From: Streptomyces sp. DG2A-72
GTDB lineage: Bacteria; Actinomycetota; Actinomycetes; Streptomycetales; Streptomycetaceae
Assembly (NCBI RefSeq): GCF_030499575.1
Contig: NZ_JASTLC010000001.1
Location: forward strand, 7,216,001 to 7,280,000
DNA: 64,000 nucleotides
Direction: 5' to 3'
Made by a program: the position numbers and the translations under genes. The notes under the pieces are model-generated. The model was not told the DNA's origin, searched no databases, and was given only the letters and a program-made list of their open reading frames with translations. Shown piece after piece: positions 19,739 to 38,708 of this stretch. Numbering within the stretch: position 1 is the stretch's first letter; the number at the start of each line of letters is the position of its first letter.

Positions 19739-21277
19739 TCAGGGAACGTAGCGGGCGTGGCCCTGGACTCCGTAGGCGGCCATCATGATGCGCCAGTACT
19801 GGACTGCATCCTGGTTGTTGGTGACGGTTTCGACGCCTCGCATCTCCGTGTTCCGCGGGTCATTGAGCGCGGACGCGTACTTGCGGAGCTCCCGTCGGTC
19901 CTTGTCGTAGAGGAAATGTCTGTCACCGTTGTCATGGTTCTTGCGGAGATCTTCCAGGGAGCGGTAGCAACGCTGGTCCGGCTTGTTGACGTACTTCGCC
20001 TCGACGGCCATCCCGTCGACGTCGCGGAACCCATCCACCATCAGCGTGTTTCCGGGACTGATCCCGGGCGGGATGTGGACTTCGTACTCGGGATAGCCGG
20101 CCACGCGCTTCTGATAGGCGATCTCAACGGGCTTGCCACCGGAGAAGCCGCCCTGCCGGAGGGAGTTCAGCCAAGTCTGGAAGTTCTTCCGCCCGCCGGG
20201 CGTGAGCGGCGGGAAGCGCGGGTCAGGTGGTGTCTCCGGAGGTACCGGCTGGACACGTGGGCCGTTGGCCGGACGGTAGGCGACCGGGACCAGGGTGGGA
20301 AGGCGGATGATCGGCGCCAGGAACGAGGGCAGCCCGGGCACGGGGCTGTCGTTGTCCGGCCGCGGCATCTTCACCCGAGCCTTGGAGCTGTCCAAAGCGG
20401 GCGGGATGTTCCCGAGCGCGTTGATCCGCATGTCGTTCGCGACAAGTTCGTGCAGACCACCGTCATGACCGTCCCCTCCGAACCGCGGCTGCTCCCACGG
20501 CCAGAGGACCTCACCGGTGGGGGACGTCTCCTCGTAGGGCAGCCGCTGCTTGGCGGTCTCTATGTGATCGGCGTAGGCGTCGCAGGCGTTGGCGATCATC
20601 CTGCAGGCGGTCGGCAGGTTTGCCATGAGGGTCTCGTCCTCGCTCACCGCACTGGGTGGCGGGTGCTTACCGACGAACTTCCTGAAGAACCCCTCGACCG
20701 CGTCGGCGGTCTGACCGACCTCGTCGAGGGTGGCCTTCTTCCACGCGGTCTCGGAGTCCCAGTACGCGTCTTCAAGGATCTTGGCTGCGTGCCGCCAGGT
20801 CAGGGCCACGGTCCGGAGCTTGCCTGGTTGCCCGAGGAAACGCTCGTTGAAAAGGTACTGGTCAACGCCGCTGGTCTCGCCGATCACCTCGGGGAGGTCT
20901 TCGGCCTGGTGACTGGCGCGTGGGGTGCAGTCAAGGCCCGACGGTTGCGCACCGATTTCCAGACCTTGAGGGCTCTGGCCGAGAAGCTCTGCCGCGATCT
21001 TGCTTTCCTGCCTCAGGAACGCCTCGGCCGACTTGAGCAGCGCGCCCGCACCGTTGGCCATCACCTGATGGGCGAATCCGGCCTTGTCGAAAACCGTCTT
21101 CACGGCCTCCATGTACACGATGGCGAACGCCCGGCCCGCCTCGTCGTCGCCTGCCATGCCCCCGTTCTCGCCAAGTTCCGCGGAGAGCAGGCCCAACATG
21201 TTGTAGATCAGGTCACGCAGATCCACCATTGACCAGGACGCGTTGACGAAGTTCGCGGTCTGATGCTGAAGATCCAA
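19739..21277 (-). CDS. Polymorphic toxin with C-terminal restriction-endonuclease-like domain
   Basis: A 512-residue protein in two parts. The first 250 residues are helical and WXG/ESX-like (MVDLRDLIYNMLGLLSAEL at the start). A proline-rich linker follows, then a C-terminal domain of about 150 residues. That domain contains LMVDGFRDVDGMAVEAKYV: an Asp, then ExK about ten residues on, the nuclease core of Tox-REase-type toxins. It probably cleaves nucleic acid in competitor cells after ESX-type export. TTG at 21277 is chosen because AGGAGGAGGGA lies just upstream; the frame is open to 21307. Confidence 0.72.
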   Translation of the reverse strand: MDLQHQTANFVNASWSMVDLRDLIYNMLGLLSAELGENGGMAGDDEAGRAFAIVYMEAVKTVFDKAGFAHQVMANGAGALLKSAEAFLRQESKIAAELLGQSPQGLEIGAQPSGLDCTPRASHQAEDLPEVIGETSGVDQYLFNERFLGQPGKLRTVALTWRHAAKILEDAYWDSETAWKKATLDEVGQTADAVEGFFRKFVGKHPPPSAVSEDETLMANLPTACRMIANACDAYADHIETAKQRLPYEETSPTGEVLWPWEQPRFGGDGHDGGLHELVANDMRINALGNIPPALDSSKARVKMPRPDNDSPVPGLPSFLAPIIRLPTLVPVAYRPANGPRVQPVPPETPPDPRFPPLTPGGRKNFQTWLNSLRQGGFSGGKPVEIAYQKRVAGYPEYEVHIPPGISPGNTLMVDGFRDVDGMAVEAKYVNKPDQRCYRSLEDLRKNHDNGDRHFLYDKDRRELRKYASALNDPRNTEMRGVETVTNNQDAVQYWRIMMAAYGVQGHARYVP

Positions 21278-21534
21278 CGTCCCTCCTCCTAGAGGCCTGA
21301 CAGGCACTCAGAGAACCGTACACGATTGCGAATACGTGCTCCATTGAGAGGCTGATGGGCGCTCGATCTTCGGCGGCCGGAGCAAGTGCTCGTCGACCGT
21401 GAGGCCCTCCGGTAGAGGCTCGCGTTCGCCCGCTACCTGCAATCCGACGGCAGGGGGCTCATTCCTCCTTGGGGATGTCGAAGCTTTAGCCAGCAGGCTC
21501 AAATCCGATTGTCGGTGCTGCATGATCCCGCTGG

Positions 21535-27138: not shown

Positions 27139-27391
27139 GCCGTGCCCTCCATCTCATCCGTCTGGCGGTCTCTACGAGACGAGTCTTGCACGCAGAATCG
27201 CCCCCCGCGGGCGGACAGCGGGGACATCGTAGGGGCGCTTGAAGTGACCCCCATGTCCACCCTTTCGACGGTAACCGTCCGCATACAGAGTGTCGATCGC
27301 GTGGTGGCGTTGGGGCTCTATGGCGTTGGTCGCCGAGGGGCCTGGGTGGAATGAGCGGCACAGCGGCATCCATGGGTGCGGACAAATCAGC

Positions 27392-27853
27392 ATGACCGAC
27401 GGCGACGAGGGGATAGCGGTGCTGAAAGAGGGCTATGCCGGGGCGAGTGCGATCACCGAACGCTACCGCCGCTGTTCTCGGTGCGGCTGCCGCCTCAGCC
27501 GCTACAACAGTGATTCACGCTGCGGTGGATGTCAGCGAGTCCCCGCGGGTTTACCCCCGAGGCAACCGCGAGTGTTGCCCGAGGTGTGGGCGGATGCGGG
27601 TGTTCAGGCGGCGCTTGCCGCCAGAGACTTCGGGAGGCTGTGCACTCTGGTACGGGAAGCCAGCGGCCTACGTCAAGATGACATGGTCACGCTGACCGGG
27701 CTGAGTCAGCCGTTCCTGTCGATGCTGGAAACGGGTGCGCGCCGTCTGACGAACATCGACAAGATCATCATTCTCCTCGATGGGCTGGGTACGCCAGCCG
27801 AACTCACCGGTCCGATGCTGCGCTCCTCGGCTGCAGAACCAGATGACTACTAG
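27392..27853 (+). CDS. Zinc-ribbon/HTH regulator (paralogue C)
   Basis: A 153-residue protein: Cys4 ribbon (CSRCGCRLSRYNS, then CGGC), a linker with VWADAGVQAALAARDFGRL, HTH (LRQDDMVTLTGLSQPFLSML) and the tail LTGPMLR. It is the most compact member of the family. ATG at 27392 is the most plausible start, although the frame is open to 27290 and no strong ribosome site is seen. It lies 41 bp before operator copy 3 and about 0.45 kb before the MSYDH pentapeptide gene, so it is a good candidate regulator of that locus. Confidence 0.78.
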   Translation: MTDGDEGIAVLKEGYAGASAITERYRRCSRCGCRLSRYNSDSRCGGCQRVPAGLPPRQPRVLPEVWADAGVQAALAARDFGRLCTLVREASGLRQDDMVTLTGLSQPFLSMLETGARRLTNIDKIIILLDGLGTPAELTGPMLRSSAAEPDDY

Positions 27854-27921: not shown

Positions 27922-28302
27922 GTGCCCTTCCGGTGATTCCAGAGCACCCTCAAGTACAGGGCAACACGTCAGCGGGTGCCAGCACGTCAGCCGGGGCTCG
28001 CGTGCGTCCGGGCCTACAACGACTGGATGGTTGAGGCGCCGTGCGGCGACAGCGGAGGCGAGCTGGGCCGGCGGCAGACCTGATCCGGTTGTTCGTGCCG
28101 CCGCGCTGGCCGACACCGCCCGCACCGACACCCTCCGTTGGGGCAGAAGGAGCTGGGCCCAGCTGTGCATTACCACAGCAGACCAGCTTATGAACCGCGC
28201 GCCCACTCAGGACTCCGGCCCCGTCCAGGGGGCCGGACGCCCGGGGATGCCTCGGGCCCGTTGCACCGCCGCCAACCGGCAACAAGGAGAAGGAGGACGG
28301 CC

Positions 28303-28320
28303 ATGTCGTACGACCACTGA
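28303..28320 (+). CDS. Five-codon gene MSYDH, candidate biarylitide-like precursor
   Basis: ATG-TCG-TAC-GAC-CAC-TGA encodes Met-Ser-Tyr-Asp-His. A near-perfect Shine-Dalgarno (AAGGAGG, 28290-28296) ends six bases before the ATG. The stop is 80 bp before a cytochrome P450 gene. Known biarylitide precursors are pentapeptides of the form M-x-Y-x-H, whose P450 cross-links Tyr3 to His5; this peptide has the same Tyr3/His5 spacing. The same frame is open upstream, from GTG at 28165 (51 residues) or TTG at 28138. A longer precursor with a C-terminal YDH core is therefore the alternative, but those starts lack a well-placed ribosome site. Confidence 0.75.
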   Translation: MSYDH

Positions 28321-28333
28321 TCCCCAGCGTCGG

Positions 28334-28361
28334 GCCGGGGCCGGCACCCACTGGCCCCGGC
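28334..28361 (+). terminator. Hairpin between pentapeptide and P450 genes
   Basis: A perfect 9-bp stem, GCCGGGGCC with GGCCCCGGC, and a 10-nt loop begin 13 bases after the pentapeptide stop. There is no clean U-tract. It may attenuate transcription or stabilise the upstream message, so that precursor is made in excess of enzyme, as in many RiPP operons. Confidence 0.6.
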
Positions 28362-28400
28362 TTGCTTTGGACACTCCGCCCTGATTCGCGAGGAGAGCCC

Positions 28401-29594
28401 ATGCCACCCTCGATCCCCATACTCACGTATGACCCCCTGGATCCGGCGACGCTCGCCGACCCCTACCCGCATCTTGCCGCGCTGCGGGAGACCACGCCGG
28501 TGTTCTGGCATGAGGGCATGCGGTCCTGGGCCCTGACCCGGTACGCGGATTGTGTCGCCGTGCTCCGCGACCACACCCGGTTCGCCCGCGACCGGCGGCG
28601 TGCGGGCGCCGAGGTGCCGGAGCCGTCCTTGAGCGTGCAGTCGCTGGACCCGCCACAACAGGCGCCGGTGCGCTCACTGTTCATGAACGCGCTGCGAGCC
28701 CAGGACCTCGATGCCATCGAGGTGCGTGCCCGACAACTGCTGGCCGCCCGGTTCGACCAGCTCTCCGGCCGCGCGGAGTTTGACGTGATGGCGGAGGTCG
28801 CGGCGCCACTGTCGGTGGCAGTCATCTCGGACCTGCTGGGCGTCGACGAGCCCGATCACGGCTCCTTCGCCCAGCTGTCGGACGCCATCATGAGGAGCAT
28901 GGACGGCGGCCTCGATCCATCCGTCGTCGAGCCGGGTCGGATCGCCCGGCAGGAGCTGAGCGAGCTGGTGGAGTCGTGGTTCCTCACCAGCGGCCGACCT
29001 GGGCTGTTATCGCACGTCCGCGAGCACGCCCGCCATGCCACCGATGCCGGCCTCGACCGTTTCGTACGCAATACCGCCCGGGTGATGTTCCAGGGCGGCT
29101 ACAGCACGATGGTCGTGGCCATCGGCAACGTCGTGCACTCTCTGCTGCAGAACCCCCACGCCCTTCAGCGAATGCGTGATCAGGTCCTGCTCCGCAGCGG
29201 CGTCGACGAACTCATTCGCTACGACGGGCCGGTGCAGGGCACGAGCCGGATCGCAACCGAGACCTGCCATATCGGCGGCGTCACGGTGACGGCGGGCGAG
29301 ACCGTGACGGTCCTGTTCGTCGCTGCCAACCACGACCCGGCCCAGTTCCCCGACCCCAGCCGGCTGCTGCTGGACCGTTCGCCGAACCGCCACCTCGGCT
29401 ACGGCTGGGGCACCCACGCCTGCATCGGCACAGTGCCCGCCCAGACGGCCCTGCGCGCCCTGGTGTCCAGCCTGCTGGAGCACCCGGCGCCCCTGAAAGC
29501 GGCTGGTGAGCCGCAGCGCCGCCGCACCGCGACCATGCGCGCCTTCGACGCACTGCCCGCCGCCTTCCGCCCCGAGATGGGAGTACACAATTGA
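28401..29594 (+). CDS. Cytochrome P450, candidate peptide cross-linking enzyme
   Basis: A 397-residue bacterial class I P450. The K-helix ExxR is ELIR near residue 270, and the haem loop is GYGWGTHACIG with Cys341 as iron ligand (Tyr replaces the usual Phe). The I-helix reads GGYSTMVVAIG, lacking the normal acid-Thr pair, a change known in P450s doing coupling rather than hydroxylation. ATG at 28401 follows GAGGAG. Given the MSYDH gene upstream, the inferred job is Tyr-His coupling; nitration or hydroxylation of Tyr are alternatives. Redox partners are not encoded here. Confidence 0.9.
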   Translation: MPPSIPILTYDPLDPATLADPYPHLAALRETTPVFWHEGMRSWALTRYADCVAVLRDHTRFARDRRRAGAEVPEPSLSVQSLDPPQQAPVRSLFMNALRAQDLDAIEVRARQLLAARFDQLSGRAEFDVMAEVAAPLSVAVISDLLGVDEPDHGSFAQLSDAIMRSMDGGLDPSVVEPGRIARQELSELVESWFLTSGRPGLLSHVREHARHATDAGLDRFVRNTARVMFQGGYSTMVVAIGNVVHSLLQNPHALQRMRDQVLLRSGVDELIRYDGPVQGTSRIATETCHIGGVTVTAGETVTVLFVAANHDPAQFPDPSRLLLDRSPNRHLGYGWGTHACIGTVPAQTALRALVSSLLEHPAPLKAAGEPQRRRTATMRAFDALPAAFRPEMGVHN

Positions 29595-30988
29595 GGATCC
29601 TGATCGGCAATCACATCGACCCCGCCATCCGCGACCGCGGCGACCTGCGGGCCTGGACACAGCGTGTGCTGTGGTTCGCCCGCGCAGGCGACGTGGTTGT
29701 GCTGTGCGACGGGCCCGACCCTCAGTTCCTCACCTACCAGGCCTCGTTCACGGGCGTGGACCCGGCCAGCCTGCATATCGTGGTGCCTCCGGTCGGCCGC
29801 CACGGCGGCCGTCTGATGGACCCCGAGAGCCTCACCAGTGACAAATTCGTCCGTACCGTCCGCGACGTACTCGGCGAGCGCGGGCTGGACGGCGTCGAGG
29901 AGGTCTTCGCTCTGTGGCCATCGGCGCACGTGGCCCGTTTTGCCGCCGCGCTGGGCATCAGGGACCGGTTCCCAGGGGCGGACTTCTTCGCTCAGGGCGG
30001 TGGGGAGCTGGGCAACAACAAGGCGACCTTCCGGGCCCTCGCGGCCGGAGCCGGGGTACCGATCCCCGCCGGAGCCGTTGCCCGCAGCGAACGCGAGGCC
30101 ATCGACGCCACCACCACTCTGCTGGACGAGGTCGGCGCGATCATGGTCAAGCAGGCTCACAACGGGGCGGGTGTGGGCAACCAGCTCGTGGTGCGCGATG
30201 CCTCCCTCGCGTCCGACCACGTCGGCGCGCGCCACCTCCACCACCTCGACAGCGGGGGCAGGGAGGCGATCGAGGCGTACTGGAAGGAACGCTGGGACTG
30301 GGCTTCAGCATCCGGCCGGTTCCCAGCCGTCATTGAGGAGTTCGTCCCTGACGCGGAGTCCGTGTACTCCGAGCACTACGCCGCCGACGACGGAACGCGG
30401 CCGACGGAGATGGGGACGCTGCAGTACGTCGGGCGGCGCCTGAGCCACCAGATCGTGCCCCTGCGCGGGGTGGACGAGAACGTCCGTTTGCAACTGTTGG
30501 AGGGCGGGACACGGCTGGCGGAGGCTTACCGGACGCTCGGCTATCGCGGGCACCTGAGCGCGGACGCGATCGCCTCGCCGGACGGGCGGGTGGTGTTCAC
30601 CGAGGTCAACGCTCAGGTCTCGGGAAGCCTGCACATCTACCAGGCCATCGCCCACCACATCGTCGATACCGCAGCTGCCCCCGAGCGGTCGGTGGTGGAG
30701 TATCACGTCCACCCGACTTGGGCAGTCCCCGACTTCGACGCCTTTCTCGAGGCCGCCCATGAGCTCGGCTGCGGCTACGACCCGGCCACGCGCACCGGCG
30801 TCATCGTCTCCATGCCGGTGATCCCCATCGAACCCGGGCGCGCCCAGTTCGTGTTCTGCCTCGCCTACGCCACCGATGCCGATCGCCAGGCGGTGTGGGA
30901 CGCGCTCGACCAGCGGTTCGCGGCCGTGCCTGCGGACACGTACGCCGCGAGTGACCACGTCGGCGTACCGGCCCGGTCCCGCTGCTGA
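29591..30988 (+). CDS. ATP-grasp peptide ligase, PGM1-like
   Basis: A 465-residue protein with a pre-ATP-grasp N-terminal domain, then the ATP-grasp fold (IMVKQAHNGAGVGNQLVV for the nucleotide loop, VVFTEVNAQVSGSLHIY for the metal-binding Glu/Asn). A C-terminal domain (CGYDPATRTGVIVSMPVI) follows. This layout resembles PGM1 of pheganomycin, which ligates a non-proteinogenic guanidino acid to a ribosomal peptide. It starts with TTG overlapping the P450 stop. The likely role is forming an amide bond to the N-terminus of the processed peptide. Confidence 0.82.
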   Translation: MRILIGNHIDPAIRDRGDLRAWTQRVLWFARAGDVVVLCDGPDPQFLTYQASFTGVDPASLHIVVPPVGRHGGRLMDPESLTSDKFVRTVRDVLGERGLDGVEEVFALWPSAHVARFAAALGIRDRFPGADFFAQGGGELGNNKATFRALAAGAGVPIPAGAVARSEREAIDATTTLLDEVGAIMVKQAHNGAGVGNQLVVRDASLASDHVGARHLHHLDSGGREAIEAYWKERWDWASASGRFPAVIEEFVPDAESVYSEHYAADDGTRPTEMGTLQYVGRRLSHQIVPLRGVDENVRLQLLEGGTRLAEAYRTLGYRGHLSADAIASPDGRVVFTEVNAQVSGSLHIYQAIAHHIVDTAAAPERSVVEYHVHPTWAVPDFDAFLEAAHELGCGYDPATRTGVIVSMPVIPIEPGRAQFVFCLAYATDADRQAVWDALDQRFAAVPADTYAASDHVGVPARSRC

Positions 30989-31011: not shown

Positions 31012-31986
31012 GTGATGAGCACACCCGAACGCACCCAGCCCGCACCGCTCGTCGAGGCGGCTCGGCTCGCCTGTTCGTTCGACGCCGACCGTCTCCAAAG
31101 TGAGCTGGCCAAGGTCAGCGGCCACCGCTGGAAGCCTCAGCGCATCCACGCCCCCGGCGGAAGCATCGGCCAGACGGCCGCCATCGACTGGCGGGTGCTG
31201 CCGCTGCGCAGCCCTGGCGGCGACCCGGACCGCACCGACCCCGGCGGCCCCGGCCCGGTCGACTTCGCGCCCACCGTCTGGATGGAGCGGCTGCCGTATC
31301 TGCGCGAGCTACTCGATGGAATTCCGGCGCCGCTGAACGCCGTACGGCTGATGGCGCTCGGCCCGGGAGCCGCCTCCCGGCCCCACCGCGATCCGAAGTA
31401 CGCCCTGCACCGCGGCTTCATGCGCCTGCACATCCCGCTCGTCACCCACCCCGGCGCGGTCCTCGTCCTCGATGGCGTGGAGCACTGCTGGCAGCCGGGC
31501 GAGTTCTGGTACGGGGACTTTTCCCGGGAGCACCTCGTGCGCAACACGGGGCCGGCGACCCGGGTGCACGCAGTCATCGACGCCCTGCTCACCCGCGAGT
31601 TGGCCGAGCTGTTCCCTGTCGATTGGCAGATCGCCCTCGCCCGTGCCGGCGTGCTGTTCAACCAGCCCGCCCCTGCAGCCGCGGCCTGCCCCATCGCTCT
31701 CCCATACCCCGCCAGCCTTCCGAGCGGTCTCACCGACTTCGATCACGACCAGCCGCTGGACGGTCCCCTTCAGCCCGTCCAGCTAAGTGAGGCTGACGGA
31801 CATCTCAGCCTTACCACCGCCGACCGGGCCTTCGCCCTTGTCCCAGTCGGACAGAGCGAGTTCCGCTTCGCCGGGTGGAGTGAGCAGCGCACCCTCCAGC
31901 TCACCGACGACGGCGTGGTGCTGCGTGCCCGCCACGGCCGCCAGCTCACTGAACGCCGCCTGCCGGCCGCGGCGAGAACCCGGTGA
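31012..31986 (+). CDS. Aspartyl/asparaginyl beta-hydroxylase-domain oxygenase
   Basis: A 324-residue non-haem iron oxygenase. RLMALGPGAASRPHRDPKY contains the HxD-type ligands around residue 125. FWYGDFSREHLVRNTG and RVHAVIDA supply the distal His region, the Asp/Arg-hydroxylase pattern. A C-terminal extension of about 120 residues is of unknown role. GTG (31012) and ATG (31015) starts are both possible after GGAGAGG. The pentapeptide contains an Asp between Tyr and His, so beta-hydroxylation of that residue is an obvious possibility; a free amino acid is the alternative. Confidence 0.82.
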   Translation: MMSTPERTQPAPLVEAARLACSFDADRLQSELAKVSGHRWKPQRIHAPGGSIGQTAAIDWRVLPLRSPGGDPDRTDPGGPGPVDFAPTVWMERLPYLRELLDGIPAPLNAVRLMALGPGAASRPHRDPKYALHRGFMRLHIPLVTHPGAVLVLDGVEHCWQPGEFWYGDFSREHLVRNTGPATRVHAVIDALLTRELAELFPVDWQIALARAGVLFNQPAPAAAACPIALPYPASLPSGLTDFDHDQPLDGPLQPVQLSEADGHLSLTTADRAFALVPVGQSEFRFAGWSEQRTLQLTDDGVVLRARHGRQLTERRLPAAARTR

Positions 31987-33173
31987 CCGCCCTGCCGAAT
32001 CCCGTCCCGTCGCAGATGAGGAACCCCATGCAGCTGACCAGCTACGACGACTTCACGACCCTGCGCGAGATCATCGTCGGCTCCGCCGAGAACTACCTGT
32101 CCCACGAGCGTGACGTCACCTTCGAGCTGTTCCACCACGAGAACCTGACCGGCTTCCGCTCCGACTGGGCCTACCCCCGCCTGGCCGCCGCAGGCGGCGG
32201 CACGGCGCAGAACTGGAGCGTCAAGCGGCGCTTCACCGAGGAACTCCACCAGGACGTCGAGGCCCTGGCCGCGACGCTCGCCGGTCTCGGCGTTACCGTG
32301 CACCGGCCTCTGCCGCTGCCGCCGGACGCTGCGCCCATCGCCGGGCTGGGCTGGCAGGCCGCTCCCACTCCGGCCCTGAACATCCGCGACAACACGTTGA
32401 TCCTCGGCGACGAGATCATCGAGACGCCGCCGGCGATCCGCTCCCGCTACCTGGAGACCCGCCTCCTGGCCCCGGTTTTCCGCCGCTACTACGAGGCAGG
32501 TGCCCGGTGGACGACGATGCCACGCCCCACCCTCACCGATCTCTCCTTCGACCTGTCCTACGCCAGGGATGCCGCGACAACTCTGGGTGGCCCCACCGAG
32601 CCGGTCGCCGACCCACAGCCGAGCCCGTACGATGTCGGCTTCGAGATGATGCTCGACGGCGCCCAGATCCTTCGCCTGGGCCGCGACCTGGTGGTCAACA
32701 TCGCCCAAGACAACCACCGCCAGGGCGTGGACTGGTTGGAGCGGCACCTCGGCGACCGATACCGCATCCATCGGGTGCACCGGATGGCCGACAACCACAT
32801 CGATTCCATGCTGCTGGCGCTGCGACCTGGGGTGTTCCTCGCCCGGCACGACGGCATCCGCGACCTGCTGCCCGGGGCCCTGCAGGCGTGGAAGTTCATC
32901 GTCCCGCCCGAGCCCGACCCGGGGGCGTTCCCCGCCTACGACGACGCCGACCTGGTCCTCACCAGCCCGTACATCGACCTCAACGTCCTGTCTCTCGACG
33001 AAGAAACGGTGCTCGTCAACGAAGACTGCACTGGTCTGATCAAAACCCTCGAAACCGAGGGTTTCACCGTAGTGCCCGTACGGCACCGGCACCGGCGGCT
33101 GTTCGGCGGCGGCTTCCACTGCTTCACCCTCGACACGGTCCGTGAAGGCGCCTGCCTGGACTACCTGTCGTGA
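31983..33173 (+). CDS. Amidinotransferase (glycine/inosamine amidinotransferase family)
   Basis: A 396-residue enzyme of the AGAT/StrB1 family. The catalytic Asp lies in FEMMLDGAQILRLGRD, the His/Asp pair in MADNHIDS, and the nucleophile Cys380 in GGGFHCFTLD. It should move the amidino group of arginine onto an amine to make a guanidine. GTG at 31983 overlaps the previous stop; ATG at 32028, with GAGGA upstream, is an equally good start. In this operon it would make a guanidino acid for the ATP-grasp ligases, as in pheganomycin- and resorcinomycin-type pathways. Confidence 0.9.
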   Translation: MTALPNPVPSQMRNPMQLTSYDDFTTLREIIVGSAENYLSHERDVTFELFHHENLTGFRSDWAYPRLAAAGGGTAQNWSVKRRFTEELHQDVEALAATLAGLGVTVHRPLPLPPDAAPIAGLGWQAAPTPALNIRDNTLILGDEIIETPPAIRSRYLETRLLAPVFRRYYEAGARWTTMPRPTLTDLSFDLSYARDAATTLGGPTEPVADPQPSPYDVGFEMMLDGAQILRLGRDLVVNIAQDNHRQGVDWLERHLGDRYRIHRVHRMADNHIDSMLLALRPGVFLARHDGIRDLLPGALQAWKFIVPPEPDPGAFPAYDDADLVLTSPYIDLNVLSLDEETVLVNEDCTGLIKTLETEGFTVVPVRHRHRRLFGGGFHCFTLDTVREGACLDYLS

Positions 33174-34486
33174 GACCGCCCTGCGTCCTGTTGCTGGAGG
33201 CGGCCGGCCCCGAGTCCGGCGCGATCGCAGCGACAGCAGCCGCCTCCGGCTACCAGGTCCATGCCGTCACCGATCTGGCCACGCATGCCACCTACAGCGC
33301 CGACCTCCAACAGGTGCTGTCCGGCTGCCTGCTCACTGACTTCTCCCAGCCCGAGATGGCCCTGAAGGACATCGTGGGCTACGCCCGCCGGATCGGCGCC
33401 GATGCCGTGGCCACCACCAACGAGTACCTCACCGAACTGCTCGCTCAGGCGTGCGCCGCCCTCGACCTGCCAGGCAACGACCCGGGCCGCGCGGCTGCCG
33501 CCCGCAACAAGGCGGACATGGCCGAGGCATTCGCCCGCCACGGCGTCACCGCGCCCCGCACCCGCATCATCGACGACGCTGACGAGTTGCTGCGCCGGTG
33601 CGCGGCCGGGCAGATCACCTTCCCGTCCGTCATCAAGCCCGCCGACGGCGCGGGCTCCGCCGGAGTCACCGTCGTGACCGACCCTGGCCGTGCGGCCGAC
33701 GCCTGGCGGGCGGCGGGCGCCCCGCGCGGCATGTATGGCATGCCGCGCGATCCACGCGTCCTAGTCCAGGACTACGCCAACGGCACCGAGTACAGCGTCG
33801 AATCACTCACCCACCACGGCCGGACGACGCATCTGTGTGCCACACGCAAGACGCTCACCCCCGGCGCGCACCGGGTTGAGGTCGGTCACAGCCTGCCCGC
33901 CGCTCTACCGCCGGGCGCCGAGCGGCCCGTGCAGCAGGAGGTGGAGCGCGCGATCGCCGCGGTGGGGATCCGCAACGGGGCCTCCCATACGGAGGTGATC
34001 GTCACCGATGACGGCCGCTGCACGGTCATCGAGATCGGTGCCCGACTCGGCGCCGGACACATCGGTGTTCTCCTTCAGCACGCGCTGGGCATCGATCCGT
34101 GGGCGGCGCTCCTCGACACCGCCCTTGGCCGCCCCGCCGACCTGACTCCAGCCCGCCACGAGCACGCCACCGTACGTTTCCTGACCAGCCCGCGCGCCGG
34201 CCGCCTGGTCGCGGTGATCGGCCTGCCGCAGGCGGGCCCCGGCGTGCCCTCGGTCCGGCTGCGCACAGCCGTCGGCGAGACCGTTGGGCAGGCACAGGCC
34301 AACCGCGGACGCCTCGGCCACCTCATCGTCACCGGCCCGGACGCCGCCACCGTAGAGCGCCAAGCCGAGCGACTGCTCTCCCAGATCACCATCGTGGTCA
34401 CCCCGGGAACCCCGGCGCAGACCACACTGGACCGCCCGCCGCAGCCGAGCCGGGACCCGGGAAGGGACGTAAAGCGTGCACCGTGA
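33170..34486 (+). CDS. ATP-grasp ligase (amino-acid/dipeptide ligase type)
   Basis: A 438-residue ATP-grasp of the biotin-carboxylase/L-amino-acid ligase type. It shows FPSVIKPADGAGSAGVTVV (ATP loop), LVQDYANGTEYSVES, and CTVIEIGARLGAGHI (metal-binding Glu and Arg/Gly). GTG at 33170 overlaps the amidinotransferase stop by GTGA. It differs from the PGM1-like enzyme, so two separate amide bonds may be formed in this pathway. The substrate cannot be read from sequence. Confidence 0.87.
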   Translation: MRPPCVLLLEAAGPESGAIAATAAASGYQVHAVTDLATHATYSADLQQVLSGCLLTDFSQPEMALKDIVGYARRIGADAVATTNEYLTELLAQACAALDLPGNDPGRAAAARNKADMAEAFARHGVTAPRTRIIDDADELLRRCAAGQITFPSVIKPADGAGSAGVTVVTDPGRAADAWRAAGAPRGMYGMPRDPRVLVQDYANGTEYSVESLTHHGRTTHLCATRKTLTPGAHRVEVGHSLPAALPPGAERPVQQEVERAIAAVGIRNGASHTEVIVTDDGRCTVIEIGARLGAGHIGVLLQHALGIDPWAALLDTALGRPADLTPARHEHATVRFLTSPRAGRLVAVIGLPQAGPGVPSVRLRTAVGETVGQAQANRGRLGHLIVTGPDAATVERQAERLLSQITIVVTPGTPAQTTLDRPPQPSRDPGRDVKRAP

Positions 34487-35281
34487 GCCGAGCACCCCAT
34501 ACGCCAGGCAAGAGAAGTACCCGGCGACACCGGCAGGCGAATTCGACGCGCTGTTCCAGGGCGAGGCCCGCGCTGGCGGCTTCAGCCGGGTGGCCCGGAT
34601 CGTGGATCCGCCGCTGACGCCGGAGATTGAGCCGTTCCCCATCCTCTCCTCCGATCTGCTGCACCACCTCGCCGCTGCCCTGAGGCAGGAGGAGAGTGAC
34701 GTCCTAGCTGCCCTCGGGTGTGGGCGCGGCGGCCCCGGCCTTTGGCTGGCCCACTCAGCCCACGCCGACCTGGTCGGAGTCGACTTCTCGCCGGTCGCGG
34801 TGGCCCAGCTCGGCAACGAGCCGCCGCGCTTGCGATGGCAGGTAGGGCCCACTTCGTGGTGAACGACCTGACCAGCACCGGACTTCGGGATACGAGCGTG
34901 TCAGCGGCCGTCTCCATCGACGCACTTCAATACGCCGACCATCGCGCGCCGGCAGCCGACGGGACACGCCGGATTCTTCGTCGGGGTGGACGTCTCGTTG
35001 TCACTGGTTGGCACCCGCTCAGCTTCGGCGACTCACGGTTGCCCGAGCGGCATCGTCACACCGACTGGCCCACCGTGCTGAGCGCCGCCAATTTCACCGC
35101 TGTGGAATGCCAGGCCCGGCCCGCTGGACCGACACCTACCAGTGCATCTACCGCGTCGCGCTCCAGCTGGGCGACCCGGGCGCGGAACGCCGCGCTCGCC
35201 GGTCTACAGAGCGAAGCCCTGTGGCGGCTACCCACCGCCCACCTCCTGAGCCGGATTGCCGCTACCGCAATCGCCAGCTGA
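34476..35281 (+). pseudogene. SAM-dependent methyltransferase broken by frameshifts
   Basis: Three frames are needed to follow one class I methyltransferase. The first carries the fold to ALGCGRGGPGLWLAHSA and LVGVDFSPVAVAQ. Near 34840 it passes to HFVVNDLTSTGLRD and VSAAVSIDALQYAD. Near 35115 it passes to WTDTYQCIYRVALQLGDPG, then back to LAGLQSEALWRL. At least three shifts are required, so it is inactive unless the assembly has errors. It is the last gene of the pentapeptide operon and overlaps the ATP-grasp gene by 11 bp. Confidence 0.8.
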
Positions 35282-35474: not shown

Positions 35475-36461
35475 TCAGGTCAGGCTGGCCAACACCGCCC
35501 TCATCGCGGAGTAGCTCTCGCGTACCCCGTCGGTGTTGGAAAGGCGGTGGCGCTCCAGGCGGATGGCGCCGAGGTGCCGGGCTTCGTAGATCCGCGAGCG
35601 CCACATCGCTGCGGCAGAGCGATCCGGCAGGCCGTAGCTCTCCCAGAACGCCTCCCGTTCGTCAGGCTTCGCCATCGCCATCCGGATCGTCCAGTCAGCG
35701 GGCCTGTCCCCCCACCACGTGCGGTCCATGTCGAGTACTCCGGTGATCTCCGGCTCCAGCGAGGTCCCGTCGAGCATCACGTTGACGGTCCAGAGGTCGC
35801 CGCTCAAAAGCCGGGGTTCGGTGATCTCGTCGAGGACGGCACGCTCATGCTCGGCCACGGCGGCGACCTTGCGCAGATCGGCGGCGTCCAGACCGACGCT
35901 GTCCAGGTCGGTGGCGATCTCCTCCAAGGACGCGATCACCGCCTCGCTCCAGGTGCCGTACGCCGGACCGGCGACGGGCCCGAAGTGCGGGCCGCGTACA
36001 GCGTGCACGTCGCGGGCGATCGTGCCCATCTGCCGGAAGAACGCGGGCCAGAGTGCGCGGGGATAGTCGCCGAGGCGGTCCGGGGCGGGGACACCGTCGA
36101 GGAGAGTCTGGACCATGTAGTCCCGGCCGATCACCTCATGCGACCAGTCCGCAGCGATCACCTGCGGCATGAGCGGTGCGATCACCGCGAGCCACGGCAC
36201 GCTGGCGTACTCGTTGCGCATCAGCTGGTGCTCGGAGCGGAACTGCCGCCCTGGCTCCGGGGCAACCCGCAGGATGACTGGCCGCTCCTGGCCTTCGAGT
36301 TCGATCCGGTAGGTGTTGTTGTACATGCCCGCGCCCAACTCGGTGGCAGACAGGACCCGGGCGTCGGCACCGAAGACTCGTCGGCAGATCCCCCGGACCT
36401 CGTTGATGGTCACCGACTGCTGGAACGCCCCAGAAGCGCGCTCAATCGGCCGGAAGTCCAT
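35475..36461 (-). CDS. Aminoglycoside phosphotransferase-fold protein
   Basis: A 328-residue APH-family protein. LSGDLWTVNVML is the catalytic loop (the usual His before Gly-Asp is Ser) and VLDMDRTWWGDRPAD is the metal site. ATG at 36461 has GGGAG six bases upstream. A fragment of a close relative survives at 18.86 kb. It converges on the broken methyltransferase and may give resistance or act on an unrelated metabolite. Confidence 0.85.
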   Translation of the reverse strand: MDFRPIERASGAFQQSVTINEVRGICRRVFGADARVLSATELGAGMYNNTYRIELEGQERPVILRVAPEPGRQFRSEHQLMRNEYASVPWLAVIAPLMPQVIAADWSHEVIGRDYMVQTLLDGVPAPDRLGDYPRALWPAFFRQMGTIARDVHAVRGPHFGPVAGPAYGTWSEAVIASLEEIATDLDSVGLDAADLRKVAAVAEHERAVLDEITEPRLLSGDLWTVNVMLDGTSLEPEITGVLDMDRTWWGDRPADWTIRMAMAKPDEREAFWESYGLPDRSAAAMWRSRIYEARHLGAIRLERHRLSNTDGVRESYSAMRAVLASLT

Positions 36462-36477
36462 ACTGCTCCCCATCACT

Positions 36478-37391: not shown

Positions 37392-37541
37392 CGTGAGGAG
37401 TATGGGACTCCACCGAAGCGGACCAACTCCCTTGGTCCCAGAGCAGATTTGAAGCACATGCGATGCATCCATGTGGCACCGACGGGCATGACCTGGGTGT
37501 CTGTCCGGTACACGACGTCGAGGAAACTGGGGGTGCAGGTA

Positions 37542-38708
37542 ATGGCACGCAGGCGGCAGCGGCTGGCCGAGCGGCGCCAAGGGGTGGGCCTTACACAGGA
37601 AGCTCTCGCTGAACTGCTGGGCGTCGACCGCTCTACCGTCGTGCGCTGGGAGTCGGGCACGGCTTCTCCTCAGCCGTGGATGCGCCCGCGTCTCGCCTGC
37701 GCCCTCCAGATCTCGATTGATGAACTCGGCCTCCACTTACAGGAAGACATCGGGCAATCAAGCCGTCGGTCCGCGGACAGGGAATCCCTGATCTCGGATG
37801 CCGCCCAAGTGGATCTGATGACGACAGCTGACCTGCGCCGCACATTCGATGAACTCGCGACCAAATACGATGGAGCGCCGTCCTCCAGCCTGCTCGCCAA
37901 GGGCGGAGAGCAGCTCAGCCTGATCACCCTCATGGCACGAAGGGCTTCGCATGGACGAGCGGAGCGAGAGATCCTTGCGCTCCAGGCCGACGCACTGACG
38001 CTCATGGGGCAACTCGTCTGGGATGCTTCACAGCGGCGCGACCATGCCACAGCACGTGACTATTACGACGAAAGCGTCCTGGTCGCCCGCCGTCTTCGCG
38101 ATCCCACGCTCGAAGGACGTGCGCTTCTACGGAACTGCTACGTCGCCCTCTACGGAGCCCAGGACCCACGCAGCGGGTTGAACCTAGCCCTGCACGCCGC
38201 CGACACGGCTCGGTTGACCAGCCCCGCCGTGACTGGCCTGGCGCTCCTTCACGCCGGCGAGGCTCACGCCATGCTTGGTGAGGCGAGGGAGTGCGAGCGG
38301 GCTCTCGCCCAAGCGCAGCGGCAGTTGGAGCAGACAGACGGGATGGACGCGGCAGCCGACCTCGTGTCCACGACGCAGTTCGGCCGTCTGGCGGGGTCGT
38401 GCTATCTGTCGCTCGGACAGCACCGGCGTGCACAGAAGTTCCTTGAGGCAACCGCAGCACAACTGCAAGATCGACGAAAGTCACGCGCGATCGTGCTCGG
38501 GAACCTTACGCTCGCTTACATCCGTCAGCGCGAGATCGATGCAGCCGTGACTACGCTGACCGAGGCCATTGCGGAGTTGGAGGAGACTCGGGGCGGAGGA
38601 GGATTGAACGTGGTCTTCAGCGCGGCACGCGAACTAAGAGCTTGGCGGCAGGAACACATCGTCGCCGATGTCCACGACCGGCTGTTTGCGCTCATGGCAA
38701 CGACGTAG
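37542..38708 (+). CDS. HTH (XRE) regulator with TPR-like region
   Basis: A 388-residue protein. The HTH is at the N-terminus (LAERRQGVGLTQEALAELL, then VDRSTVVRWESGTASP), followed by a linker and helical repeats from about residue 100. It precedes the formyl-THF cyclo-ligase gene by 17 bp and may be co-transcribed with it. The start is set at the ATG directly before the HTH; the frame is open to 37449. Confidence 0.82.
   Translation: MARRRQRLAERRQGVGLTQEALAELLGVDRSTVVRWESGTASPQPWMRPRLACALQISIDELGLHLQEDIGQSSRRSADRESLISDAAQVDLMTTADLRRTFDELATKYDGAPSSSLLAKGGEQLSLITLMARRASHGRAEREILALQADALTLMGQLVWDASQRRDHATARDYYDESVLVARRLRDPTLEGRALLRNCYVALYGAQDPRSGLNLALHAADTARLTSPAVTGLALLHAGEAHAMLGEARECERALAQAQRQLEQTDGMDAAADLVSTTQFGRLAGSCYLSLGQHRRAQKFLEATAAQLQDRRKSRAIVLGNLTLAYIRQREIDAAVTTLTEAIAELEETRGGGGLNVVFSAARELRAWRQEHIVADVHDRLFALMATT

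Follow-up and report, generated by a model that had tools for sequence, protein, structure and literature searches.

A conserved five-codon gene before a biarylitide-type P450 in Streptomyces sp. DG2A-72, predicted to feed a biarylitide-guanidinotide hybrid

The locus and its pentapeptide gene

The window, that is, the whole stretch of 64,000 nucleotides analysed here, contains a five-codon gene, MSYDH, followed by a hairpin, a cytochrome P450 gene and a run of peptide-tailoring genes. The features of the locus, with the matches on which each assignment is based, are the following.

27368 to 27853, plus strand: helix-turn-helix regulator, role uncertain (HTH_31, 1.3e-07)
28290 to 28296, plus strand: ribosome-binding site AAGGAGG of the pentapeptide gene, six bases before its ATG (sequence)
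28303 to 28320, plus strand: likely precursor gene MSYDH, ATG-TCG-TAC-GAC-CAC-TGA (read from the sequence; conserved in relatives)
28329 to 28366, plus strand: hairpin right after the precursor gene, 15 pairs of 16, loop of 6 (above the shuffle expectation)
28401 to 29594, plus strand: cytochrome P450, biarylitide type (PF00067, 9e-15; RufO, 3e-88; P450Blt, 3e-76; tree)
29591 to 30988, plus strand: PGM1-type ATP-grasp peptide ligase (PDB 3wvq, PGM1, 1.6e-79 over residues 1-407; PreAtp-grasp)
31012 to 31986, plus strand: aspartyl/asparaginyl beta-hydroxylase-like oxygenase (PF05118, 9e-15)
31983 to 33173, plus strand: amidinotransferase (1bwd, 4.8e-44; SxtG, 6u1r, 1.6e-43; arginine:glycine amidinotransferase, 1jdw, 2.2e-42)
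33170 to 34486, plus strand: second ATP-grasp ligase, L-amino acid ligase type (LAL_C2, 6.9e-19; ATP-grasp_4, 3.9e-18; BacD, 6.3e-20)
34476 to 35281, plus strand: methyltransferase pieces in two overlapping frames, apparently interrupted (Methyltransf_25 below cut-off, Methyltransf_11 above)
35475 to 36476, minus strand: APH-type kinase, a conserved convergent gene (own matches below cut-off; homologues score APH)

A further protein family, initially taken as a neighbour, was dropped because it overlaps the second ligase on the opposite strand. Apart from this cluster and unrelated to it, a protein with a Tox-REase-2 domain and a WXG100-like region below cut-off is encoded at 19739-21307 on the minus strand of the window.

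The ATG of the P450 gene stands 80 bp past the MSYDH stop codon and behind a GAGGAG run. Direct reading of the window thus bore out what the first-pass annotation had described, namely the MSYDH frame, its AAGGAGG, the stem-loop and the P450 gene at this distance. The two aromatic residues of biarylitides, Tyr3 and His5, are both present in this five-codon precursor close to a P450 gene. The pattern of an MxYxH pentapeptide followed by a stop codon, ATGNNNTAYNNNCAYTRA, had a single occurrence in the window, where shuffles gave an expectation of 0.01. With GGAGG placed 4-10 bases before the start it was found once in the genome of 10,575,821 bases, where the reversed control pattern had 0 occurrences. 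The window shuffles, these genome-wide counts and the survey of 394 genomes described below rule out a chance reading frame.

The P450 was searched against 394 genomes of the family and the best 30 loci were inspected; among the 350 genomes with listed P450 matches, most had ordinary P450s near 35% identity only. All six of the loci with a P450 at least 60% identical to that of the window (the window included, among the best 30 loci) contained MSYDH, located 72-118 bases before the P450 gene. An alignment of these six P450s was scanned against a genome-contig collection, using P450 words taken from MSYDH-type enzymes, and 26 loci were obtained. In 22 of them (L045-L066, P450 identity 59-93%) an x-YDH pentapeptide was present in every case; it was mostly MSYDH, and also MTYDH, MFYDH, MRYDH and one FYDH with a GTG start. 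The hosts of these 22 loci were Streptomyces, Actinacidiphila, Actinokineospora, Saccharothrix, Catelliglobosispora, Frankia, Kineosporia, Streptomonospora and one Streptomycetaceae metagenome assembly. The other four loci of the scan were two Lysinibacillus with MQWNY and two distant P450s (29-30% identity). Homologous loci therefore keep the pentapeptide, which was the check that had been proposed for it.

Over 29 sites, residue 2 was Ser in 22 (by three different codons), Phe in 4, Thr in 2 and Arg in 1. Considering that the pattern used for this codon table demanded YDH, the invariance of Y, D and H rests on the locus counts obtained with the looser pattern. Two loci whose P450s are the same as those of L047 and L059 (L031 and L033) were left out of the hairpin and codon counts, and L097, judging by its length (20414), was treated as the L050 contig. 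A G-rich run lies within 20 bases before the start codon in 31/31 loci rows; it is farther off in L035, L061 and L065.

In the survey by pattern, MxYDH-stop occurred in 13/394 genomes of the family, once in each. Nine of these sites were within 2 kb of a P450 among the matches listed (G000, G021, G022, G118, G134, G177, G185, G254 and G296); the other four (G089, G210, G250 and G392) had no listed P450 near, and the surrounding 1.8-3.0 kb gave no match to the window's P450. The G210 site (L098:9906-9923) codes for MSYDH with a ribosome site and a hairpin of 15 pairs, and behind it stand genes for an MFS protein and a pyroglutamyl peptidase; within about 10 kb of this site, nothing matched the window's P450. 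In L040 the enzymes are present and the pentapeptide was not found. Judging from the sequence, MSYDH at 28303-28320 is likely a biarylitide-type minimal precursor.

The P450 and its peptide pocket

The nearest solved structures of the P450 were 9m47 and 22yx (labelled only cytochrome P450), RufO (8spp, 9duj and 9eby) and P450Blt (8u2m, labelled P450-SU1), the identities of the last two being taken from the account in PMC12186263. A tree of 59 rows was built with two distant P450s, L069 and L070, as outgroups, and L047 and L059 were dropped; P450Blt itself is absent from it and RufO is represented by the near-identical L029. The biarylitide-type P450s were set apart from the two distant ones with support of 100/99. 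The structure matches and the tree agree in grouping the window enzyme with the biarylitide-type enzymes, a placement on which the first-pass annotation depended. Within this group, the window P450 belongs to a clade of 26 MxYDH rows (99/95). A second clade of nine rows with other I-helix residues (L007, L009, L012, L013, L014, L021, L067, L068 and L011) has the precursors MSYDH, MTYDH, MDYSH, MRYDHCL, MSYNH or MQWNY, with L011 lacking a known one, and the MRYND enzymes (L008 and L010) branch just outside both clades; support is weak at several forks of the tree, and some of its long branches are uncertain. The rows labelled without precursor were L011, L019 and L023-L028, with MSYDY found later for L019 and MKYWH for L023, and the tag for NO synthase on L022 and L029 was assumed from their likeness to RufO.

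Some of these related loci have unusual precursors. MRYND, which has no aromatic residue 5, is located some 150-200 bases before a P450 52-53% identical to the window's in L008/L037 (G187) and L010/L039 (G110), and an MFS gene follows; the MRYND pattern was found in 2/394 genomes only, both at such a P450, and G187 also has a copy with a GTG start farther upstream. The published filter, which needs aromatic residues at positions 3 and 5, would miss it. In L014/L043 (G318) a seven-codon frame, MRYDHCL, with a strong ribosome site and a hairpin, precedes a related P450 in which the residue matching RufO Arg231 is Ser. In L015-L018 and L020, MRYAY or MRYDY is found before two tandem P450 genes, the second of which is 33-39% identical to the window's.

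The contacts of RufO with its peptide, as given in PMC12186263, were mapped onto the window P450 through L029. RufO binds the backbone and C-terminus of the peptide through Arg231 and Arg188, which the window enzyme retains as Arg227 and Arg183, and the residue printed as Glu84 in that paper, which is Gln in the alignment, is kept as Gln80. The residues that hold His5, His235 and Glu239, are replaced by Gln231 and Ser235, and Phe69, which stacks on Arg-2, by Arg65. The residues R-V-Q-S-T at positions 227, 228, 231, 235 and 236 were identical in all 26 rows of the MxYDH clade, so the His234 and Glu238 of the P450Blt-type I-helix are Gln231 and Ser235 in each of them. In P450Blt, A231, H234 and E238 are described as setting specificity, and His234 as directing the C-N bond (PMC10929621). 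Position 69 (RufO numbering) was Phe or Trp in 10 of the 12 rows with Arg2 and in none of the 32 rows in which residue 2 is something else. The comparison excludes 15 of the 59 rows, which were outgroups, second copies or rows whose precursor had not yet been found; since the rows are related, the pattern is to be taken as support and not as a statistic.

By homology, the window P450 is predicted to cross-link Tyr3 and His5 of MSYDH. The binding geometry is probably similar to that of RufO, because Arg227 is kept. Nevertheless, with Gln and Ser in place of the His and Glu that hold His5 in RufO, the cross-link may differ, and a Tyr-His link like that of P450Blt cannot be taken for granted. It could be that MSYDH is the precursor and that the P450, its His5 pocket having been rebuilt, forms something other than the C-N link, such as a C-C bond between Tyr and His, or a bond from Tyr to Asp4 or to the backbone. 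The Gln231 and Ser235 of all 26 clade rows point in this direction, as does the neighbouring branch, which has similar I-helix residues and uses a precursor, MRYND, without an aromatic residue 5. Against it, His5 is conserved in the 22 loci L045-L066, and the Arg that in RufO binds the peptide C-terminus is retained. We give this alternative serious weight, somewhat short of an even chance, beside the predicted Tyr3-His5 link.

The hairpin, the upstream frame and nitration

A hairpin of at least 10 pairs within 60 bases after the pentapeptide was found in 25 of 26 loci, when 4.0 were expected from dinucleotide shuffles; the stem letters vary among loci and the pairing is maintained. It was also seen with at least 12 pairs at 13 of 18 sites of other precursor types or other positions. 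It follows pentapeptide genes that are not upstream of the P450 (L036, L041, L042 and L095) and stands behind MRYAY, MRYDY, MRYLH, MRYIY, MRYDHCL and one MSYNH; no such hairpin was found in L037, L038, L039, L096 or the second MSYNH copy of L044. Taking into account these other positions and precursor types, the hairpin seems to go with the precursor gene and not with the P450, and it is likely the transcript end or a 3′ stabiliser of that gene. For myxarylin, a predicted structure between bytA and bytO is presented beside a terminator hairpin in a supplement legend of PMC8708641. Such tiny genes are excluded by current annotation pipelines, according to the main text of PMC13417212; being present for several precursor types, the hairpin is a usable signature for finding five-codon precursor genes.

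A short reading frame with a strong hairpin ahead of an operon resembles an attenuator, and the five codons and the hairpin might then be a regulatory leader of the P450 operon and no product gene. We consider this improbable. The module is mobile and keeps its hairpin when it is downstream of the P450, in L036 and L042, or 1.7 kb upstream, in L041; in L038 it is also downstream of the P450, but without the hairpin. Residue 69 of the P450 tracks the identity of peptide residue 2, and related P450s have been described acting on such pentapeptides (PMC10929621, PMC13417212).

That MSYDH is the precursor itself also has to be weighed against a longer frame, a caveat of the first-pass annotation, by which the precursor would start at GTG 28165 or TTG 28138 and YDH would be its C-terminal core. 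Both starts exist, a third in-frame start stands 14 codons upstream, and the frame is open for 73 codons before MSYDH. The upstream in-frame starts differ from locus to locus, however, and none is present in 5 of 29 loci (L034, L038, L041, L046 and L063). Moreover, the ribosome site stands directly before ATG 28303, and the same pentapeptide is found downstream of the P450 in L036 and L038, between the P450 and the amidinotransferase genes, and as MTYDH at its 1.7 kb distance in L041. Because the upstream starts are unconserved while the placement of MSYDH or MTYDH shifts, the pentapeptide is the unit that is kept, and we discard the longer leader-bearing precursor as highly improbable.

Equally improbable is that the P450 nitrates Tyr3 as RufO does, the pentapeptide serving as a nitrotyrosine carrier, a role suggested by rufomycin-type clusters and by the place of RufO among the nearest solved structures. 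A search of the own genome at E up to 0.001 gave no NO synthase match (as a control, the family was present in 2 of 14 named genomes), which makes RufO-type nitration unlikely. The nitration-linked RufO residues Asp169 and Val240 correspond to Met164 and Thr236 in the window enzyme, and L022 and L029, with a P450 nearly RufO letter for letter and the precursor MRYLH, are elsewhere in the tree.

Neighbouring enzymes and the predicted product

The best of the amidinotransferase matches, 1bwd, is an inosamine-phosphate amidinotransferase. The FHC and H-x-D motifs, which we take to be catalytic, align in the window enzyme, which had no Pfam or NCBIfam match; from its family, arginine is inferred as the donor. 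The gene set was conserved in L045-L066. The PGM1-type ligase, the amidinotransferase and the second ligase were found in 22/22 loci, the hydroxylase in 20/22 (missing in L048 and L062, both of which still have YDH) and the kinase in 21/22 (missing in L053), and methyltransferase homologues were at the same position in 6 of the 22. Homologues of the kinase in L033 and L036 matched PF01636 (APH) at 3.3e-14 and 3.6e-19, and a self-protection role is possible for it. A hydroxylase homologue is present in the MRYAY locus L088. Considering this homologue and the absence of the hydroxylase in L048 and L062, Asp4 may not be the target of the hydroxylase.

Matches to the PGM1-type ligase and to the amidinotransferase were present within about 10 kb in none of 14 loci with other precursors (L037, L039, L042, L044, L067, L068, L088-L094 and L096; MRYND, MDYSH, MSYNH, MRYAY, MRYDY, MRYLH, MRYIY, MKYWH and MQWNY), and in 5/5 further loci with MSYDH, MTYDH, MRYDHCL or MSYDY (L036, L038, L041, L043 and L095). 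Among these five, L043 codes for MRYDHCL with a weak amidinotransferase match (29%) and L095 for MSYDY. In the MSYDH locus L032 the PGM1 is divergent (52%), a ligase of another type is present and the kinase gave no match. The idea of Asp4 as the general partner of PGM1 does not quite hold: two MRYDY loci, L090 and L091, have Asp4 and no PGM1 or amidinotransferase match within that distance, so the tie of PGM1 is closest to YDH.

Two other genes were noted around related P450s. A prolyl aminopeptidase homologue (TIGR01249, over cut-off in L032) is located within about 10 kb of the P450 in L032, L034, L040 and L041; counting L032 itself, it had at least 53% identity in 4 of 14 loci and 33% in a fifth, and no homologue was seen in the window's cluster. 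It is a candidate leader peptidase. A divergent regulator of the NsdA family (NF053720) is located about 1.2-1.7 kb before the P450, for example at L033:16016-17335, with at least 60% identity in 10 of 22 relatives; the window instead has a helix-turn-helix gene with a weak TPR match downstream, at 37449-38708.

The two enzymes of guanidinotides, a PGM1-type ligase and an amidinotransferase, are thus both in the cluster by homology, and the conservation of these two together with the second ligase, hydroxylase and kinase leads us to predict a biarylitide-guanidinotide hybrid. The rest of the cluster had not been visible to the first-pass annotation, and taking it in changes the predicted product. 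In the pathway that we consider probable, the P450 would join Tyr3 and His5 of MSYDH, and a peptidase would remove the Met-Ser leader after cross-linking. The guanidine would most naturally come from the amidinotransferase encoded beside PGM1, an enzyme that would produce a guanidino amino acid. This amino acid would be attached by the PGM1-type ligase to the N-terminal Tyr amine of the cross-linked Tyr-Asp-His core, and the second ligase would append one more residue. Oxidation of a side chain, either of Asp4 or of the appended residue, would fall to the hydroxylase, and protection of the producer to the APH-type kinase. The gene, its conservation, the families of the neighbouring enzymes, the relatives of the P450 and the hairpin are established directly, and the chemical steps and their order we infer. 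Removal of Met by methionine aminopeptidase, following the rule of this enzyme on residue 2 as applied to Ser2, fits Ser and Thr but not the relatives with Phe2 or Arg2, and is not claimed.

A bolder version of this pathway, which we regard as doubtful, would treat MSYDH together with its hairpin as a portable mini-cistron, in which the 18-bp gene has a transcript end of its own, feeding a hybrid antibiotic of the guanidinotide and biarylitide kinds. The P450 with its rebuilt pocket would forge a new Tyr-Asp-His ring, the two ATP-grasp ligases would build a guanidino-acyl arm and the dedicated kinase would silence the compound in the producer.

In known systems, PGM1 joins an amino acid of the guanidinoacetic acid type to a small core peptide, and the guanidinotide pheganomycin resembles the window cluster in that a ribosomal peptide is processed by a PGM1-type ligase and an amidinotransferase (PMC8939145); the difference is that in the window cluster the peptide is a five-residue substrate of a P450. 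Among the 18 ORFs scanned around the cluster, neither genes for making an unusual amino acid were recognised nor a type III polyketide synthase, and because the latter was not seen the capping amino acid must differ from that of pheganomycin. Leader removal in myxarylin has been ascribed to a likely prolyl oligopeptidase (PMC12951456). The rufomycin enzyme RufO is alike in P450 family and in the use of a pentapeptide, and differs in the residues linked to nitration and in the NO synthase, for which the window genome has no match.

The closest likeness is to a class already in print. In 2026, 277 biarylitide clusters were reported, with Pgm1 homologues beside Asp4 precursors in 47 of them, which were called hybrids of biarylitide and pheganomycin machinery (PMC13417212). 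As in the window, a single cluster unites a five-codon Asp4 precursor with a biarylitide P450 and a Pgm1-type ligase; in contrast, the passages of that report consulted here mention neither an amidinotransferase nor a second ligase or kinase in connection with the Asp4 class. The proposal of the first-pass annotation, that MSYDH is a new precursor variant, holds as far as a minimal precursor of the biarylitide type is concerned, but the word new was too strong given those 47 clusters, among which the window's may be; MSYDH has 0 occurrences in the main text of that report. Our literature search for MSYDH found nothing related, and that for biarylitides with an amidinotransferase or with Pgm1 found nothing beyond this report. 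To our knowledge, no product is known for this Asp4/Pgm1 cluster class. The sav cluster of Saccharothrix variisporea (MRYVH), in the same report, also has an amidinotransferase and an Asp/Asn hydroxylase beside the pentapeptide and the P450, and differs in Val4, in Arg2 and in that only these two tailoring enzymes are named; it gave only the plain cross-linked YVH tripeptide with neither modification (PMC13417212), which counts against a tailored product.

The window extends this class by a member whose conserved gene set is fuller, whose P450 pocket is rebuilt and whose precursor and hairpin form a mobile module. Taking into account the conserved ligases, the amidinotransferase and the self-protection-like kinase, the finished product may turn out to be the active compound, of which plain tripeptides give only a hint, and the window cluster supplies the exact genes for testing this idea.
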